From a virus: a stretch of DNA of 38,658 bases. Location: positions 1-38,658 of IMG/VR virus record IMGVR_UViG_3300034101_001080; one strand, given 5' to 3'. A program made the position numbers and the translations under genes. The notes below the pieces were generated by a model. That model searched no databases. It worked only from the letters and a program-made list of their open reading frames with translations, and was not told where the DNA came from. This document shows, piece by piece, positions 1 to 38,658 of the stretch. The stretch's first letter is position 1; each line of letters opens with the position of its first letter.

Positions 1-127
1 AAAAATGCTCTTGACGAAGAATCATACAACGACTTCATGGAAGCAATGAAGAATCCTGGGATAACAGCAGCAGCTATCTGTCGTGCACTAAAAGATCTTG
101 GTGTCGAAGTATCTGTAATGAGCATAC
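1..127. repeat. Terminal direct repeat, left copy
   Basis: These 127 bases are identical to 38532-38658. The repeat lies inside a reading frame that is whole only when the two ends are joined, so the contig closes on itself. A length of exactly 127 equals the largest k-mer commonly used by de Bruijn graph assemblers, so this is more likely an assembly overlap of a circular or circularly permuted molecule than a true terminal repeat. A short-tailed phage could have a real direct terminal repeat of similar size, but one falling inside a gene would be unusual. Confidence 0.95.
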
Positions 128-4345: not shown

Positions 4346-4648
4346 ATGACAAGTCAGAAACGAAGGGAACTTATGGCTGAGATACTCGACGAGTGGAAGC
4401 TAGTAAATAAAAAGTTTGAGTGGACAGACAAGGCTGCATGCAAAGGCATGACAGAGATGTTCTTTCCGGAGAAGGGTGATGCCGACGGTACTGTCAACAA
4501 AGCAAAAGCTGTATGTGCTACATGCTCAGTCAAGGATGACTGTTTGGAATTTGCGTTAGACAACTCGTTCGCCTATGGTGTGTGGGGTGGCATGAGTGCA
4601 CGCCAACGAAAGACTTACAAAGCAGAACTAAGAAGGGCAAAGCGATGA
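4346..4648 (+). CDS. WhiB-family iron-sulfur transcription regulator
   Basis: This is a DNA-binding regulator of the actinobacteria-specific WhiB family. The 100 residues have the four cluster-binding cysteines in the standard spacing (C32, C57-x2-C60-x5-C66), the GVWGG turn at 78-82, and a basic C-terminal tail RRAKR. The family binds a 4Fe-4S cluster and contacts the housekeeping sigma factor. Phage-borne WhiB proteins such as that of mycobacteriophage TM4 are known to interfere with host WhiB2, giving septation defects and superinfection exclusion. This gene is the strongest evidence for an actinobacterial host. It follows the transglycosylase by six bases and overlaps the next gene by ATGA. 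Confidence 0.95.
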   Translation: MTSQKRRELMAEILDEWKLVNKKFEWTDKAACKGMTEMFFPEKGDADGTVNKAKAVCATCSVKDDCLEFALDNSFAYGVWGGMSARQRKTYKAELRRAKR

Positions 4649-5936: not shown

Positions 5937-6132
5937 TCTACTGGGTCTTACCCCTTTCTACCCCAGTAGATGAAAGTCCGCTAACACTTACGGACTATAT
6001 GGCTGACATACCCATACAAGTTAGCGAGTATGTCACTCATTGCTTCTATGCCATGAGTACCTAGGGTTGGTATCCCCAAACCGCAACCCTCTGACCCTAG
6101 GTATTCACGGGATACAAGCGACCCTTGTGTCC
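5937..6132 (+). ncRNA. Candidate structured RNA: six consecutive stem-loops
   Basis: The 235 bases between 5933 and 6169 hold no gene but a chain of inverted repeats. They are: 5937-5945/5962-5970 (9 bp); 5975-5980/5991-5996 (6 bp, extended by 3 bp past a bulged C); 6004-6011/6028-6035 (8 bp); 6035-6040/6053-6058 (6 bp); 6058-6067/6094-6103 (10 bp, perfect); and 6110-6118/6124-6132 (9 bp with one G-T). Helices 3 and 4 share base 6035, and helices 4 and 5 share base 6058. None is followed by a T run, so a simple terminator is unlikely. The region looks like an intercistronic leader or stand-alone RNA for the AAA+ gene. I do not recognise a known riboswitch or ribozyme core. Confidence 0.55.
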
Positions 6133-6159
6133 TTACCAAAAACCAATACAACAAGGGAG
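6110..6159 (+). promoter_or_regulatory. Candidate ribosome-binding-site switch before the AAA+ gene
   Basis: CCCTTGT at 6122-6128 can pair in two exclusive ways. It can form the right arm of the 6110-6132 hairpin, or pair with ACAAGGG at 6151-6157, which contains the ribosome binding site AAGGGAG of the gene starting at 6169. One fold would leave the site open and the other would cover it. This is what a translational switch would look like. The 7-bp pairing could also be chance. Confidence 0.35.
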
Positions 6160-6168
6160 AAAAAGAAA

Positions 6169-6912
6169 ATGGAAGAAATCACTAATGCGTTTACCCCACT
6201 TGATCCATTGGGTCAATGGGAACAAGCAGACTTTGCTCTAGCCAATGGGCTTGGGAGAGTTCTGTTCTATGGTGCGCCAGGAACTGGTAAGACATTCTAC
6301 GCAATGAATTACCACCTCAACGGCAAGCCTTCTTACCGTCTCATCTGCAACGACGAGATGACTGAAGCACATATCCTTGGTATGTGGAAGCCAACACTTA
6401 GCGACAATGGTCATTTGACCCATACATTCCAAGAAGGTGTAGCAGTAAAGGCTTGGAGAACTGGTGGTCGTTTGGTCATTGACGAGATCAACCACGCTAA
6501 CAGCGCTGTGACTAGCGTTCTTATGGCAATGATCGACACTAGCCATAGTTCCTCTTGGCAAAACCCAGAGACTGGTGAGATCGTCAAGCCACATGAGGAC
6601 TTCTCAGTCGTTGCCACTATGAACGGTGAGCCTGAGGATCTTACTCGTGCTATCCAAGACCGCTTGGTAGTTCAGTTAGAGATCAACCAGCCACACCCTG
6701 ACGGTGTTGCTTCTTTGCCTGAATACCTACGAGACATTGCGCTTTCGTTCGGTAGTCGTACTGGCAAGGATCGTTACTCGTTGCGTAACTTCGTAGAGTT
6801 CGCTGACCTTTACGGCAAGACGGGTAACCTTCAGCACTCTGCCCAAGTGTGCTTGCCTCGTATCCAAGAAACACTTGTAGACACCATTGCTCTTGCAAAG
6901 GTAGGTGCGTAA
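6169..6912 (+). CDS. MoxR/CobS-like AAA+ ATPase
   Basis: This 247-residue ATPase has the full AAA+ set: Walker A GAPGTGKT (35-42), Walker B LVIDEIN (102-108), sensor-1 ATMNG with N152, and the arginine-finger segment DLTRAIQDRL (158-167). The helical insert between Walker B and sensor 1 and the short C-terminal lid resemble MoxR-type chaperones and the CobS subunit of cobaltochelatase. Such ATPases usually act with a VWA-domain partner, and one is encoded two genes downstream (7381-8709). ATG 6169 has AAGGGAG nine bases upstream. An upstream in-frame start at 6040 lies within the hairpin chain and is rejected. Whether it serves metal chelation, protein remodelling or defence cannot be told. 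Confidence 0.88.
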   Translation: MEEITNAFTPLDPLGQWEQADFALANGLGRVLFYGAPGTGKTFYAMNYHLNGKPSYRLICNDEMTEAHILGMWKPTLSDNGHLTHTFQEGVAVKAWRTGGRLVIDEINHANSAVTSVLMAMIDTSHSSSWQNPETGEIVKPHEDFSVVATMNGEPEDLTRAIQDRLVVQLEINQPHPDGVASLPEYLRDIALSFGSRTGKDRYSLRNFVEFADLYGKTGNLQHSAQVCLPRIQETLVDTIALAKVGA

Positions 6913-31154: not shown

Positions 31155-33014
31155 ATGGCTGGCTTGCTCACGTTTGCAGAACCATTTGTAAACACACACC
31201 CATTCTTTACAGGAAGACCATCCAACAACTTGGTACCAGACATTTTCCCGATAGCGATTGACGGTCGACCATACTTGGTTGATCAAAAGTCAAGTCAGTT
31301 CATGCGTGGATTTGAGGCGCGTGTCCGCGACTCTGTTGACCAGTCGACATCTCCTGGTGAAGCTGCTATCAACCCACAGGGATTGTGGCGTCGTGGTGAA
31401 ACCTCTTGGCATTTGGGTGCAGGACAGCTGTATGCAGATACCGCGGAGGCACAGGACTACAGGTTTTATTCCAGCAAGGGTATCAACCCGTGGACCAAAG
31501 GCCAGCTTAAGCTTCTTAATAAAGTTAAAGAATCACTTAGCTCAGGCAACACAAACCTGCATCTTCATGTTGCTGACGGGAAACTGTATGTAGCAGATGG
31601 TGCTACGGTCAAATACTCATCCAACCCCTTTGCCTCTAGCCCAACCTGGACTTCTGTTACTGGACTTCCTAATGCTGTACCTCGCGACATGTCATCTGAC
31701 GGAAGCAACATCTACCTGACCTATGCGGGTCTTAGCAGCAGCTATGGACTGTGGAAGATTGATGACAGTCAGGTTGCTTCAAACGTGGCGTATGGTCACG
31801 AGCTTTATTATGTTGACTATGTAAAGGGATACGTAATGGTTGCCGGTAACTCGGCATCCGGAAACTCTAACGATCTTTACTACAGTCCAAGCGGAAACAT
31901 TGGAGCTGACGACTACAGTCACCCTCTGTCAACATGGAACTGGACAAGCTTTGCATCTGGCCAAAACGCAATCTATGTAGCTGGCCACTCTGGTGACAAG
32001 GGGGCTATCTACAAAATAACTATTGCAAGTACTGGTGTTCTTGACACACCTGTTGTTGCGCTTGAGTTTCCAACTGGTGAAATCCCTTATACTGTTTACG
32101 GCTACCTTGGTGGGATCTTTATCGGTACCAGCAAGGGAGTTCGCTATGCAACGTCGGACAATGACTCAAACCTTGTGTCCGGTTCGTTGATCCCAACATC
32201 TGGAAGCGTGACTACATTTACCGCTGATGACAAGTACGTGTGGTTCAACTGGTCCAACTATGACGGCGTGTCTACCGGGCTTGGCAGGATCGACCTATCG
32301 TCGTTTACAAGCGCAAACACTCCGGCGTATTCAACGGACTTAATGCACACCTCCACGGCCAGTGTGCTGCATGTAGTGACCTACGACAATAAGCGTGTGT
32401 TCTCAATATCTGGTGATGGCGTGTATGTCGAAGATGCAGCCAACCTGGTTGAGACTGGCGAAATAGTCACCGGAACATACCGTTGGGGCATACCTGACCG
32501 GAAGTTCGTGGCCAAGTTTGATGTCCGAACGACACCGCTTGAAGGAGTCGTTACGCCGTATATTTCAATCGACTCAGCCGCGTATGTATCGTTGTCTCCG
32601 CACTCGCAGCAGTCTGCAACAGAGAAGGTGTCAAACGGTCCTCAGTCAAAGTTTATTGAAGCCAAGTTCAAGCTTGAATTAGCAAGAGCTACTGCCACAA
32701 CTGGACCAACCGTAACACGCTGGATGGCTCGTGCTTACGCCTCGCCAGCCAGGAGCCAGGTGTTCCGCGTGCCAATCCTCATGCACCATAAAATTGTGGA
32801 CAACCGAGGGTCAGAACACTACTTCGATGTTGAGGTAGAGCTTGAAGCATTAAGGGCATTAGTTACAAACCCTGTAGTGGTAAACTATCAGGAAAATACT
32901 GAGACATTTTCGGTGGTTGTTGAAGACCTGGAGTTCCAGGTAATTGATGGCTACTATCAAAACTGGGACCTAGAAGGAACCTGTATTGTTACAATGAGAT
33001 CAGTACAAGATTAG
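31155..33014 (+). CDS. Probable tail nozzle protein (tail tubular B / gp12-like)
   Basis: The product is 619 residues and beta-rich. The opening has FPIAIDGRPYLVDQKSSQF, and a long central part repeats blades with the pattern aromatic, Gly, short strand (for example DGKLYVADGATVKYSSN, then DGSNIYLTYAGLSSSYG, QNAIYVAGHSGDKG, DDKYVWFNWSNYDG), which reads as a beta propeller. The C-terminal 150 residues form a separate beta domain. Size and order after the adaptor match the nozzle of podoviruses such as T7. It could also be another baseplate-like protein, but the absence of tube and tape-measure genes favours a short tail. Confidence 0.65.
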   Translation: MAGLLTFAEPFVNTHPFFTGRPSNNLVPDIFPIAIDGRPYLVDQKSSQFMRGFEARVRDSVDQSTSPGEAAINPQGLWRRGETSWHLGAGQLYADTAEAQDYRFYSSKGINPWTKGQLKLLNKVKESLSSGNTNLHLHVADGKLYVADGATVKYSSNPFASSPTWTSVTGLPNAVPRDMSSDGSNIYLTYAGLSSSYGLWKIDDSQVASNVAYGHELYYVDYVKGYVMVAGNSASGNSNDLYYSPSGNIGADDYSHPLSTWNWTSFASGQNAIYVAGHSGDKGAIYKITIASTGVLDTPVVALEFPTGEIPYTVYGYLGGIFIGTSKGVRYATSDNDSNLVSGSLIPTSGSVTTFTADDKYVWFNWSNYDGVSTGLGRIDLSSFTSANTPAYSTDLMHTSTASVLHVVTYDNKRVFSISGDGVYVEDAANLVETGEIVTGTYRWGIPDRKFVAKFDVRTTPLEGVVTPYISIDSAAYVSLSPHSQQSATEKVSNGPQSKFIEAKFKLELARATATTGPTVTRWMARAYASPARSQVFRVPILMHHKIVDNRGSEHYFDVEVELEALRALVTNPVVVNYQENTETFSVVVEDLEFQVIDGYYQNWDLEGTCIVTMRSVQD

Positions 33015-35085: not shown

Positions 35086-35384
35086 TGGCAAATTACGCTC
35101 AAGTTAAAAATGGAGTGGTTGTAGACATTGTTGTAGCCGACCAAGAGTGGATTGGTATACAAGAAGATCCTTCTGAGTGGGTGGAATACACGGATGAGGC
35201 TCCGGCAAGAATTGGTGGAGACTACATAGACGGATTGTTCTACACACCAAGTCCTTACCCATCGTGGACTAGGGATGAAGATGGCGACTGGATGCCGCCA
35301 ACACCTTACCCAACAGAGGTTTACCATGATTGGCAATGGAACGAGGAGACGCTCTCTTGGATAGCAGCGCAAACACAACAGTAA
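35085..35384 (+). CDS. Probable tail fibre assembly protein, 99 residues
   Basis: This small acidic protein lies directly after the fibre gene (TAATG overlap). It is rich in Trp, Tyr and Pro, with WTRDEDGDWMPPTPYPTE and a second YHDWQWNEETLSW. The pattern of W-x-P-P-x-P-Y-P followed by a W-x-W-x-E segment is known in short phage proteins encoded next to fibres, likely acting as fibre assembly chaperones or tip parts. No catalytic motif. The N-terminal part (AQVKNGVVVDIVVADQEW) looks like two strands. Confidence 0.7.
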   Translation: MANYAQVKNGVVVDIVVADQEWIGIQEDPSEWVEYTDEAPARIGGDYIDGLFYTPSPYPSWTRDEDGDWMPPTPYPTEVYHDWQWNEETLSWIAAQTQQ

Positions 35385-35545
35385 TTAGTGAAGAAGAAAT
35401 AGACAGTTACGCTTCTGCACGCATGGCCATTTGCCGTTCATGCGATCAGCTTAAAATCAAGCTTCCATTATGCAAACAATGTAAGTGTTTTATGCCTGTA
35501 AAAACAAGGTTAAAATTTGCTCACTGCCCACTTGATAAGTGGTGA
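35357..35545 (+). CDS. Small zinc-ribbon protein (TTG start), 62 residues
   Basis: TTG 35357 is chosen because CGAGGAGA (35342-35349) lies a proper distance before it. It overlaps the previous gene by 28 bases. The product carries AICRSCDQLK (C26/C29), LCKQCKCFMPVKT (C39/C42/C44) and HCPLDKW (C57), a zinc ribbon of the kind found in many phage proteins with unknown role (CxxC, CxxCxCFM, CP). It ends in an overlap with the next gene. A probable DNA- or protein-binding accessory. Confidence 0.7.
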   Translation: MDSSANTTVISEEEIDSYASARMAICRSCDQLKIKLPLCKQCKCFMPVKTRLKFAHCPLDKW

Positions 35546-37026
35546 ACTCTCGCTGGCTGATATTCATTCCTGTTGCTTTATTTGCATTTATAGCAAAGCC
35601 AGCAAAAGCAGATGTACTTGGAGAATGGACATACAGCCAGTCATGCCCAACATCTGGATCGGTAGAAGTAGTTGACGACACAATCATCTTGCATGGCCCA
35701 GACCAAGGCGGATGTTCGGGTGCTGCCCACTGGGTAAAGATTGAGACCACAATCCCAGCAGATGTAGACACAATAGATTTTGAATGGTCATACCAGACGA
35801 CTGATGGTTGGGTGTACGACCCACCACAGTACGGCATCAACGGCACATACACATTGATTACACAACAGAACAATGCGACAGGCGAGCTGTCAGTACCAGT
35901 TAATGAGGGTGACATCTTCACGTTCCGACAGTATTCGATTGACACCTGTTGTGCCCCTGGTCACTTAACTATTGCTAACCTATCTTTATGGGCATCTATA
36001 ACCACATCCACGACGTCGACGACGACAAGTACTACTACTGTTCCGCCAACGACTGTCCCTGCCACGGTCCCGACTACTACGACAGTTCCAGAAACCTCAA
36101 CCTCGTCTACATCGACGACTATAAGTACGACGAGTACAACATCGTCGACGACAAGTACTACAACGACAAGTACAACAAGTACGACAGTTTTACCGGTTAC
36201 CTCAACTAGTTCTTCGACTACGTCTACTACTACGACTAGTTCAACTACGACTAGTTCAACTACGACTTCTTCCGTACCGCAAACAACATCATCAGTATTA
36301 GTGCCGACCACGACACTACCGCCAGAGCCGTCAACATCTATACCCCCTCAAATATCTGAGCCAGAACCCGTTGAGCCTTCCGTTCCTGAAGAGATTGTTG
36401 AAGTGCCGACAGGCACCACAACGACAGTAGTAGAGGACCCCATTCAAGAGGAGACGCCTCTAGAAGAAACAACCACGACAACTGAAGCAAGTCCAGAAAC
36501 ATACCCTGATACTACAGAGGAAACTGTTGATTCCACAATCGCTCCAGATTTAGAGCCAAATTTAGAGCCAGATGCCCCGTTGACTGACGAGCAGGTCACA
36601 TCCATAATCGAGGAAGCTGAGAGTGTTGAGGCTTTAGTTGAGGCTTTGTCCGAGTTGGAACCAGAACAGGTGGCTCAGGTTCTTGAAGAGATCTTGTCTG
36701 AAGAACCAACACAGGAACAGGCTGCAGCGCTTGCAAGCACTCCCGAAGTGCTTGCTGTTGTTAGCGCAGAGCAGGCAGCAGAGATCTTCGCAGCCCTGGA
36801 TGTGGATGAGCTGACGGACGAGCAGACAGAGCAGCTTGTAGAAGCCGTCCAGAACGCTCCAGAGGCCGTTAGAGAGGAGTTCGAGGACAAGGTGGACATC
36901 TTCAAGTCTGGCCTGGATGACTACGTTCCTACGGGCTCCAACATCCCGGTCGGTGAGCGACGCACTCTTGTGGCTATCACGGCGGGGGTAACCCTCGCAG
37001 CAGCTGGTACTAGAATTAGACGATAA
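35539..37026 (+). CDS. Secreted, membrane-anchored surface protein with Thr/Ser stalk
   Basis: The 495-residue product (GTG start) has a signal peptide (residues 1-24, hydrophobic core LIFIPVALFAFIA, cleavage near AKA/D) and a beta-sandwich-like domain to about residue 150 with several Cys. A stalk (about 154-262) is made almost only of Thr, Ser, Val and Pro. An acidic segment follows, then a helical domain with LEPEQVAQVLEEILSEEPTQ and DELTDEQTEQLVEAV repeats. The C-terminus ends in a hydrophobic LVAITAGVTLAAAG segment and basic residues. This is the design of a host cell-wall or membrane protein, not a usual phage protein. Acidimicrobiia have similar Thr/Val/Pro-rich proteins. A superinfection or envelope role is inferred. 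Confidence 0.75.
   Translation: MVNSRWLIFIPVALFAFIAKPAKADVLGEWTYSQSCPTSGSVEVVDDTIILHGPDQGGCSGAAHWVKIETTIPADVDTIDFEWSYQTTDGWVYDPPQYGINGTYTLITQQNNATGELSVPVNEGDIFTFRQYSIDTCCAPGHLTIANLSLWASITTSTTSTTTSTTTVPPTTVPATVPTTTTVPETSTSSTSTTISTTSTTSSTTSTTTTSTTSTTVLPVTSTSSSTTSTTTTSSTTTSSTTTSSVPQTTSSVLVPTTTLPPEPSTSIPPQISEPEPVEPSVPEEIVEVPTGTTTTVVEDPIQEETPLEETTTTTEASPETYPDTTEETVDSTIAPDLEPNLEPDAPLTDEQVTSIIEEAESVEALVEALSELEPEQVAQVLEEILSEEPTQEQAAALASTPEVLAVVSAEQAAEIFAALDVDELTDEQTEQLVEAVQNAPEAVREEFEDKVDIFKSGLDDYVPTGSNIPVGERRTLVAITAGVTLAAAGTRIRR
35995..36285 (+). repeat. Low-complexity Thr/Ser-coding tract
   Basis: Short alternating codons for Thr and Ser (ACG, ACT, ACA, AGT, TCG) repeat over about 290 bases, with interspersed Val and Pro codons. 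A Val-rich reading frame appears on the other strand as a shadow. Slippage and recombination could change the length. Confidence 0.75.
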
Positions 37027-37187
37027 TGAGAAAGATCTTTGACCACCTAGCTGATAACTCCTGGACTTACGCTGGTACCGGCATGGTCTTGATTACCCTG
37101 TCTGGCCCTACTTTACGCCAGGCCCTATGGATTACTGGTGTAACATTGATATTGCATTCGGTATTAACACTTAGTAAGAAAGACTAA
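37026..37187 (+). CDS. Small two-helix membrane protein, holin-like
   Basis: The frame starts with a TAATG overlap on the surface protein stop and ends at TAA 37185-37187. The 53-residue product has a polar opening (MRKIFDHLADNSWTYAG), a hydrophobic TGMVLITLSGP segment and a second hydrophobic WITGVTLILHSVLTL segment, with a basic end. Size, two membrane segments and position directly upstream of a holin-like gene and the endolysin fit a lysis accessory, holin or antiholin. Sequence alone does not tell which. It is separate from the surface protein by sequence type. Confidence 0.65.
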   Translation: MRKIFDHLADNSWTYAGTGMVLITLSGPTLRQALWITGVTLILHSVLTLSKKD

Positions 37188-37189
37188 TC

Positions 37190-37441
37190 ATGGCTAAACT
37201 TCAGAACATCGCGTTCCGTATCTTCGCACTATTTGGCTCGTCAGCTCTTGCAGCTGTGGCTGGTGGTGCCCTTATCGGCGTTCAGTTGTGGAAGTCTGCA
37301 GCACTTGCAGGAATCATGGCATGTGCACAAGTGATTGAAAAGCTCTTGCGCTTCAGCGTTGACGGCAGCCTCACCAAAGAGGAGATTGAACTTGCATTCA
37401 CTGGTGCAGTCAAGCCTAAGCCTGAAGCAGCAGCTGAGTAA
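37190..37441 (+). CDS. Holin
   Basis: The 83-residue product has two membrane helices, one about residues 12-32 (FALFGSSALAAVAGGALIGV) and one about 34-50 (SAALAGIMACAQVIEKLL), and an acidic C-terminal tail (DGSLTKEEIELAFTGAVKP). This arrangement, with its position directly before the peptidase, matches small holins of actinobacterial phages that form pores and trigger lysis. Two bases separate it from the previous stop, and it overlaps the peptidase gene by TAATG. A strong assignment by context. The second small membrane protein could be its regulator. Confidence 0.8.
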   Translation: MAKLQNIAFRIFALFGSSALAAVAGGALIGVQLWKSAALAGIMACAQVIEKLLRFSVDGSLTKEEIELAFTGAVKPKPEAAAE

Positions 37442-37992
37442 TGTCGCTACCGATCGTACCGATCAAGTTCTGCGAACACATCAAGGGAAAAAAGCCGAGC
37501 GAAATTACCCCGGCAATGCTTCGAAAGTTATCCACAGGTGGACAGATGCACCATTGTGCTGCTCGTGCATTCGAAGCAATGGTTGCAAAAGCAAAGGCAG
37601 ATGGGGTGGTTATCAAACCCACTTCAAGCGGTGACACATTCCGCAGTATCGACCAACAACTCAAAGGATTTCTGCAACGCTACAGCGAGACCGATACTGG
37701 TACAGGAAAGACACGCACATACAAGGGTAAGAAGTGGTTCCTCAAGCCAGGCAATGCACCTCTTGCAGCTCCTGAAGATGATCCGAAGAAATGCTCGCGT
37801 CACATGCTTGGCATTGCTGTCGACATTGCTAACGCTAATGGCAAGATTCTTGAGTGGATGAAGAACAACATTGCTGCATTTGGATTCTCGTGGGAAGTTG
37901 TGCCTGAAGAACCATGGCACATCCGCTGGGTAGATAGCACCCCATCACAGGCTGTCCTCGATTACGAGGCAACACTGGCGCCTAAGGCATAA
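37441..37992 (+). CDS. Endolysin: M15-type peptidase (VanY/D-Ala-D-Ala carboxypeptidase-like)
   Basis: The 183-residue product is a zinc peptidase of the M15 family. The motifs are TSSGDTFRS (residues 61-69), SRHMLGIAVD with ligands H121 and D128, and EPWHIRW with E157 and H160, completing the zinc site. The N-terminal part (about 1-58) has an ITPAMLRKLSTGGQMHHCAA helix pair, seen in actinobacterial phage endolysins of this type. It lacks a signal peptide and therefore needs the holin to reach the wall. It would cut peptide bonds of peptidoglycan. The enzyme complements the secreted transglycosylase at 3818. Confidence 0.9.
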   Translation: MSLPIVPIKFCEHIKGKKPSEITPAMLRKLSTGGQMHHCAARAFEAMVAKAKADGVVIKPTSSGDTFRSIDQQLKGFLQRYSETDTGTGKTRTYKGKKWFLKPGNAPLAAPEDDPKKCSRHMLGIAVDIANANGKILEWMKNNIAAFGFSWEVVPEEPWHIRWVDSTPSQAVLDYEATLAPKA

Positions 37993-37996
37993 CCTT

Positions 37997-38200
37997 GTGG
38001 ATGGTGGCGTCGCTATCGTACTTGCTGCTGCTGTTACTGGTTCTTTTAGTTTGCTAACTGTGCTTGTGCAGAAGTTCCGCAAAGAGAACGCCCGTGATCA
38101 CGACGTGGTTATGGGGATGCTCAAGTACATGCACAAGTCTGTAATCCGTACAGAGGGCAAGTTAGACAAGCACATCGAGGATCACAACAGAAAGATCTGA
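37997..38200 (+). CDS. Small membrane protein of the lysis cassette, 67 residues
   Basis: The start GTG 37997 gives MDGGVAIVLAAAVTGSFSLL as the N-terminus, one membrane helix (about 4-24), followed by a charged helical tail (QKFRKENARDHDVVMGMLKY, then KLDKHIEDHN). A single helix with a cytoplasmic coiled-coil-like tail resembles small accessory lysis or antiholin proteins. The ribosome binding site is weak (AAGG about nine bases upstream). It is the last gene before the terminator. Function inferred from position. Confidence 0.6.
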   Translation: MDGGVAIVLAAAVTGSFSLLTVLVQKFRKENARDHDVVMGMLKYMHKSVIRTEGKLDKHIEDHNRKI

Positions 38201-38471: not shown

Positions 38472-38658
38472 ATGAGTAAATTCACAGAAGTACTGTCAAC
38501 TAGACAGCATGTTCCAGCTCAAGACAAAATTAAAAATGCTCTTGACGAAGAATCATACAACGACTTCATGGAAGCAATGAAGAATCCTGGGATAACAGCA
38601 GCAGCTATCTGTCGTGCACTAAAAGATCTTGGTGTCGAAGTATCTGTAATGAGCATAC
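38472..38658 (+). CDS. Small helix-turn-helix protein, N-terminal part (continues at 1)
   Basis: ATG 38472 follows GGAAGGAAACC. The frame stays open to the end and continues at base 128 of the window after the 127-base repeat, giving a 68-residue product that ends at 147. The first 20 residues are polar (MSKFTEVLSTRQHVPAQDKI), the rest is the helix-turn-helix described at the start. It lies just after the terminator, so it is the first gene of the early transcript, which suggests a regulatory role. Transcription would need a promoter within 38201-38471 that was not recognised clearly. Confidence 0.75.
   Translation, partial: MSKFTEVLSTRQHVPAQDKIKNALDEESYNDFMEAMKNPGITAAAICRALKDLGVEVSVMSI
38532..38658. 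repeat. Terminal direct repeat, right copy
   Basis: Identical to 1-127. See the left copy. Removing one copy gives a circle of about 38,531 bases in which the helix-turn-helix gene is whole. Confidence 0.95.

Follow-up and report, generated by a model that had tools for sequence, protein, structure and literature searches.

The final steps of lysis and progeny release are poorly understood for phages of Gram-positive-type actinobacteria, and the locus described here raises the matter in a concrete form: what could a predicted surface protein with a long stalk be doing directly in front of the lysis genes of a virus? We analysed the IMG/VR record IMGVR_UViG_3300034101_001080 from position 1 to 38,658, and this whole stretch of 38,658 nucleotides is referred to as the window.

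Architecture of the surface protein

The first 127 bases of the window (1-127) were repeated exactly at 38532-38658, and this direct terminal repeat points to a probably complete genome of 38,531 bp that was assembled as a circle. Terminase and portal genes were present. A WhiB-type gene within 4346-4648 (WhiB at 4421-4612; PF02467, E 3.1e-22) indicates an actinobacterial host. The preliminary description of this DNA had pointed to Acidimicrobiia; the WhiB gene supports Actinobacteria as a whole, Acidimicrobiia and Nanopelagicales alike. A tail protein at 31155-33014 shared 25-30% identity with proteins that came mostly from Streptomyces phages. An ATPase at 6040-6912 matched phrog_16448 (E 2.8e-54) and also hit a PHROG whose label is porphyrin biosynthesis (E 2e-19). 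The features of the locus are as follows.

35539-37026, + strand: gene of the exported stalk protein, whole (GTG start, 495 aa; full-length relatives aligned)
35539-35610, + strand: predicted signal peptide, residues 1-24, cleaved between AKA and D (sequence; site kept in relatives)
35611-35994, + strand: head, residues 25-152, a swappable beta-sandwich with a jelly-roll CBM/MAM-like fold (AlphaFold2, Foldseek)
35995-36324, + strand: mucin-like Thr/Ser stalk, residues 153-262 (composition; disordered in the AlphaFold2 model)
36325-36582, + strand: acidic Pro-rich linker, residues 263-348 (composition)
36583-36948, + strand: acidic helical domain, residues 349-470, with the conserved motif FExxI[DN][IV][FY]..YVPxGS (AlphaFold2, relatives)
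36949-37023, + strand: predicted C-terminal membrane anchor, RR-(hydrophobic)-RIRR, residues 471-495 (AlphaFold2 helix; basic ends in the sequence)
37026-37187, + strand: 53-aa partner, tm53, with two hydrophobic helices (phrog_29041), its ATG overlapping the stop codon of the surface gene (TAATG)
37190-37441, + strand: holin-like membrane protein of 83 aa (hydrophobicity and place; phrog_26427)
37441-37992, + strand: M15/VanY-type peptidase, probable endolysin (Pfam VanY, E 7.6e-11)
37997-38200, + strand: 67-aa protein of the same cassette with one N-terminal hydrophobic segment (phrog_32850, synteny)

The N-terminus of the surface protein reads RWLIFIPVALFAFIAKPAKA followed by D, with a maximum 15-residue Kyte-Doolittle mean of 2.2. 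An A-x-A-type cleavage site followed by D, E or Q was kept in 109 relatives, with AKA before D in 76, and the site in the window carries no lipobox Cys. Thr accounts for 50% and Ser for 25% of the 110 stalk residues (T+S 75%), and D+E make up 27% of the linker. In the AlphaFold2 model, which was based on a 39-row alignment, residues 25-152 formed the beta-sandwich (pLDDT mostly about 85-95), residues 153-341 were disordered, helices occupied 350-470 (pLDDT about 80-90), and a further helix ran from 471 to 490, its outer half at low confidence. This last helix, with RR on both flanks, would fit a transmembrane domain, but its hydrophobicity was only moderate (17-residue mean 1.56). The protein ends YVPTGSNIPVGERRTLVAITAGVTLAAAGTRIRR, and no LPXTG-type sortase motif precedes the C-terminal helix. 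Taken from these features, the protein is predicted to be exported and held in the membrane at its C-terminus, with the head outside at the N-terminal end.

The preliminary description of this DNA had proposed a complete ORF with a signal peptide, a beta domain, a stalk of about 110 residues, an acidic helical domain and a C-terminal anchor, and both sequence and AlphaFold2 bore this out; a predicted signal peptide and a candidate anchor were both seen, by hydrophobicity, the conserved cleavage site and the AlphaFold2 helix. No family in Pfam, PHROG or NCBIfam spans the protein. At least 198 stretches in IMG/VR were found to encode relatives, and most of the 80 kept for study had the whole architecture. 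Since it is kept across dozens of relatives, this architecture is not due to chance. The constant minimum was the signal peptide, the stalk and an anchor of roughly 60 residues, the helical domain being absent from the L254 type. Median dN/dS was 0.10 for the head and 0.15 for the anchor, indicating purifying selection.

Among GenBank and isolate phages, the sole match to the anchor was in DSL-LC01 (39.6% identity over residues 382-484), a phage from Dishui Lake with a predicted Actinomycetia host (PMC10611076). BFVD holds unnamed proteins of uncultured Caudovirales that are up to 46% identical to the surface protein, so such sequences are not new, but we found no account describing them. Plasmid searches returned no match.

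The overlapping partner gene and the lysis genes

In the partner encoded by the overlapping ORF, two stretches are hydrophobic and the motif GTGMVLITLSG is present; the protein matched phrog_29041 over 53/55 positions (E 6.8e-32). The stop-start overlap recurred in 61 of 68 loci checked. Anchor and partner occurred together in all 200 checkable loci (those whose C-terminus was intact and whose sequence extended far enough; a redundant set with 115 distinct anchor sequences among the separate loci and 9 among the fused ones, 80 of the pair loci having been found using the partner itself and the remainder independently of it): the partner was separate in 179, fused in 21 and missing from none. 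A strict motif identified 175 of the separate cases, and the other 4 had a TLTG variant, seen directly in L254 and L256 and through partner matches in two loci. No slippery heptamer was seen at the TAATG junction, so re-initiation appears preferable to a programmed frameshift.

In DSL-LC01 and its relatives, which are large phages, the partner is fused to the anchor protein in one ORF. Because these phages encode anchor and partner as one protein, the separate partner probably forms a complex with the weakly hydrophobic anchor. The structure model of the fused C-terminus had a mean pLDDT of 51, with low confidence beyond the helical part. Window queries with the partner and the holin-like protein gave no match in the isolate phage collection. 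The most distant cassettes (L110:870-1468 and L108:538-1136) consisted of an anchor gene, an overlapping partner and membrane ORFs of 70 aa and 65 aa in tight succession, and their anchor lacked the helical domain. At the other end of the surface gene, a small Cys-rich (zinc-ribbon-like) ORF at 35330-35545 overlaps the start by 7 bases, and relatives of this ORF occur in some related loci.

The pair is followed directly by the holin-like and M15 genes, as expected from the earlier placement of the protein beside lysis genes. The label 'nuclease' of phrog_26427 looks wrong for the holin-like protein, given its sequence and place. A segment of a tape-measure PHROG (phrog_16823, E 2.1e-32) was also matched by the M15 peptidase; tail proteins and lysis proteins alike contain this domain. 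Across relatives, the holin-like gene was kept next to the surface gene and its partner. In a survey anchored on an unrelated tail protein and covering 75 contigs, all 31 contigs that reached the lysis genes carried the pair directly before the holin-like and M15 genes, and none had lysis genes without the pair; lysis genes were likewise absent from the 42 contigs in which the module had no match, most of which ended soon after the tail gene. Together with the IMG/VR relatives, this does not support the earlier remark that phages rarely encode such a protein.

The retention of the surface gene and its partner beside the lysis genes suggests that they act when lysis is completed or virus is released. 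Assistance to lysis is the one we favour among three roles suggested in the preliminary description. We propose, as a tentative reading that falls a little short of being probable, that the two genes encode a membrane device tied to the actinophage lysis genes, a glycan binder that would work in the manner of LysZ or a unimolecular spanin and aid envelope rupture or progeny release. The surface protein would be exported by its signal peptide and kept in the cytoplasmic membrane by the C-terminal helix, with the partner translated by stop-start coupling and probably bound to the anchor. The stalk and linker, roughly 195 residues together, could carry the carbohydrate-binding-type head through the cell wall, a reach estimated from residue count. 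At the end of infection, after the holin and endolysin had acted, the membrane-tethered heads would grip envelope glycans, so that wall or glycan material and the membrane would be pulled apart or disrupted together and progeny would escape.

Several observations weigh against this lysis role. Clustering of late genes could by itself bring a surface protein of unrelated function next to the lysis genes. No M15 gene adjoins the fused gene in DSL-LC01 or in the large phages of the L094/L099 type, and the only match near the module in the L094/L099 type is an oppositely oriented holin-like one; homologues of the holin-like, M15 or 67-aa proteins do, however, also occur near the module in unrelated, larger phages. 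Zeigle, a sister-type Streptomyces phage that shares the tail protein, has no such gene at the corresponding place. Moreover, carbohydrate binding is deduced from the fold, and in a monoderm host a true spanin would find no outer membrane to fuse.

Head swapping and alternative roles

The head of the window protein has the jelly-roll beta-sandwich typical of CBMs and lectins, and by Foldseek and structural alignment of the AlphaFold2 model it resembled carbohydrate-binding modules and MAM domains, which suggests that it may bind sugars. It aligned with the C-terminal domain of Vibrio VesC (6bqm) with Z 12.3 and rmsd 2.1 over 111 residues; the two share this fold but only 9% identity, and the VesC domain belongs to a secreted protease. 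Relatives carried other heads, including an L-type lectin (E 5.7e-43), a SUEL rhamnose-binding lectin (E 1.5e-7), PA14 (E 7.4e-8) and further types. In L190 and L182 the head regions largely failed to match, yet the flanking DNA on either side was 95-96% identical, and anchors were 99% identical in pairs whose heads were of different types. The anchor is therefore constant and the heads are swapped among relatives. Neither this swapping nor the overlapping partner ORF and its fusion in other phages had appeared in the preliminary description.

That description had also called the protein host-like. This holds for the head fold alone, which resembles bacterial and animal CBMs. No bacterial or archaeal relative emerged from two scans of 84,980 genomes, one by full-length and one by C-terminal alignment (23 and 363 pattern matches), each of which used no more than one or two short peptide patterns; this does not prove that bacterial relatives are absent.

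Blocking of other phages, another of the roles proposed earlier, is a serious rival. The lectin-like head might cover envelope glycans late in infection, excluding superinfecting phages and stopping progeny from sticking to debris. Exchangeable lectin-like heads, a stalk long enough to cross the wall and the late placement beside tail and lysis genes would all suit such a shield, and T5 Llp, a superinfection-exclusion lipoprotein, has a comparable role (PMC9586334). Co-variation of head and tail fibre was sought as support for receptor masking and was not found: across 1326 pairs, head identity did not follow that of the tail-fibre protein next to it (Spearman rho -0.02), an argument that counts weakly against receptor matching. 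Nor did it follow two other upstream proteins (rho 0.12 and 0.16), whereas the head tracked the anchor (rho 0.63) and the holin-like protein (rho 0.54). On balance, we consider the shield less likely than the lysis role.

It is improbable that the protein serves neither lysis nor exclusion but modifies the host surface so that infected cells adhere, aggregate or are grazed differently: the adhesin-like architecture and varied lectin heads would fit, but strict pairing with the partner and the position with lysis genes would not be expected. A tail-associated receptor binder within the virion, which the place directly downstream of tail-fibre genes and the likeness of the head fold to a phage K2-2 tailspike domain might suggest, is very hard to reconcile with the signal peptide, the C-terminal membrane anchor, the membrane partner and the lack of any match to a PHROG or Pfam structural family. 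Best matches to virion structural proteins alone had been named beforehand as an outcome that would refute the surface-protein reading, and this outcome did not arise.

Comparison with known systems

The lysis role that we favour would cover hundreds of unannotated lake-phage genes. The gene pair is compact, widespread and clearly bounded, and its swappable glycan-binding-type heads would allow their specificities to be compared with the glycans of the hosts.

Like T5 Llp, the surface protein is a phage-made envelope protein that may act on adsorption; it differs from T5 Llp in having no lipobox, and in its stalk, lectin-like heads and position with lysis genes. The DSL-LC01 protein WJZ48438.1 (OQ999401) shares a homologous anchor domain and carries the partner homologue fused at its C-terminus. 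It differs in its length (944 aa), its other heads and its origin in a 129-kb phage, and is an unannotated hypothetical protein.

LysZ of the Corynebacterium phages CL31 and Cog (McKitterick, Lyerly, Bernhardt; PNAS 2026, as cited in PMC13056207) provides a precedent for glycan-directed lysis proteins of actinophages, and suggests that glycopolymers matter. As LysZ is described in PMC13056207, both are actinophage proteins located with lysis genes and, by prediction for the surface protein, membrane-anchored, with an extracellular part that is proposed to engage lipid-anchored glycans. LysZ, however, is a 177-aa protein with a single helix in N-in/C-out orientation, and the 495-aa surface protein has a different topology, with a predicted cleaved signal peptide and a C-terminal anchor; it also carries exchangeable heads on a mucin-like stalk and has a partner encoded by an overlapping gene.

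Unimolecular spanins such as T1 gp11 (PMC6139136) offer a topological precedent, being members of the lysis cassette with outside attachment at the N-terminal end and a C-terminal helix in the cytoplasmic membrane. Spanins use a lipoprotein signal in the outer membrane, whereas the surface protein combines a predicted Sec-type signal with a head of glycan-binding type, and its host appears to be actinobacterial. It is possible, and we suggest it with considerable reserve, that phages of the abundant freshwater Actinobacteria possess in this wall-spanning, membrane-anchored lectin, with its exchangeable heads and two-helix partner, a monoderm counterpart of spanins. If the protein is indeed a lysis lectin, it would do for the glycan envelope of a monoderm what spanins do for the outer membrane.
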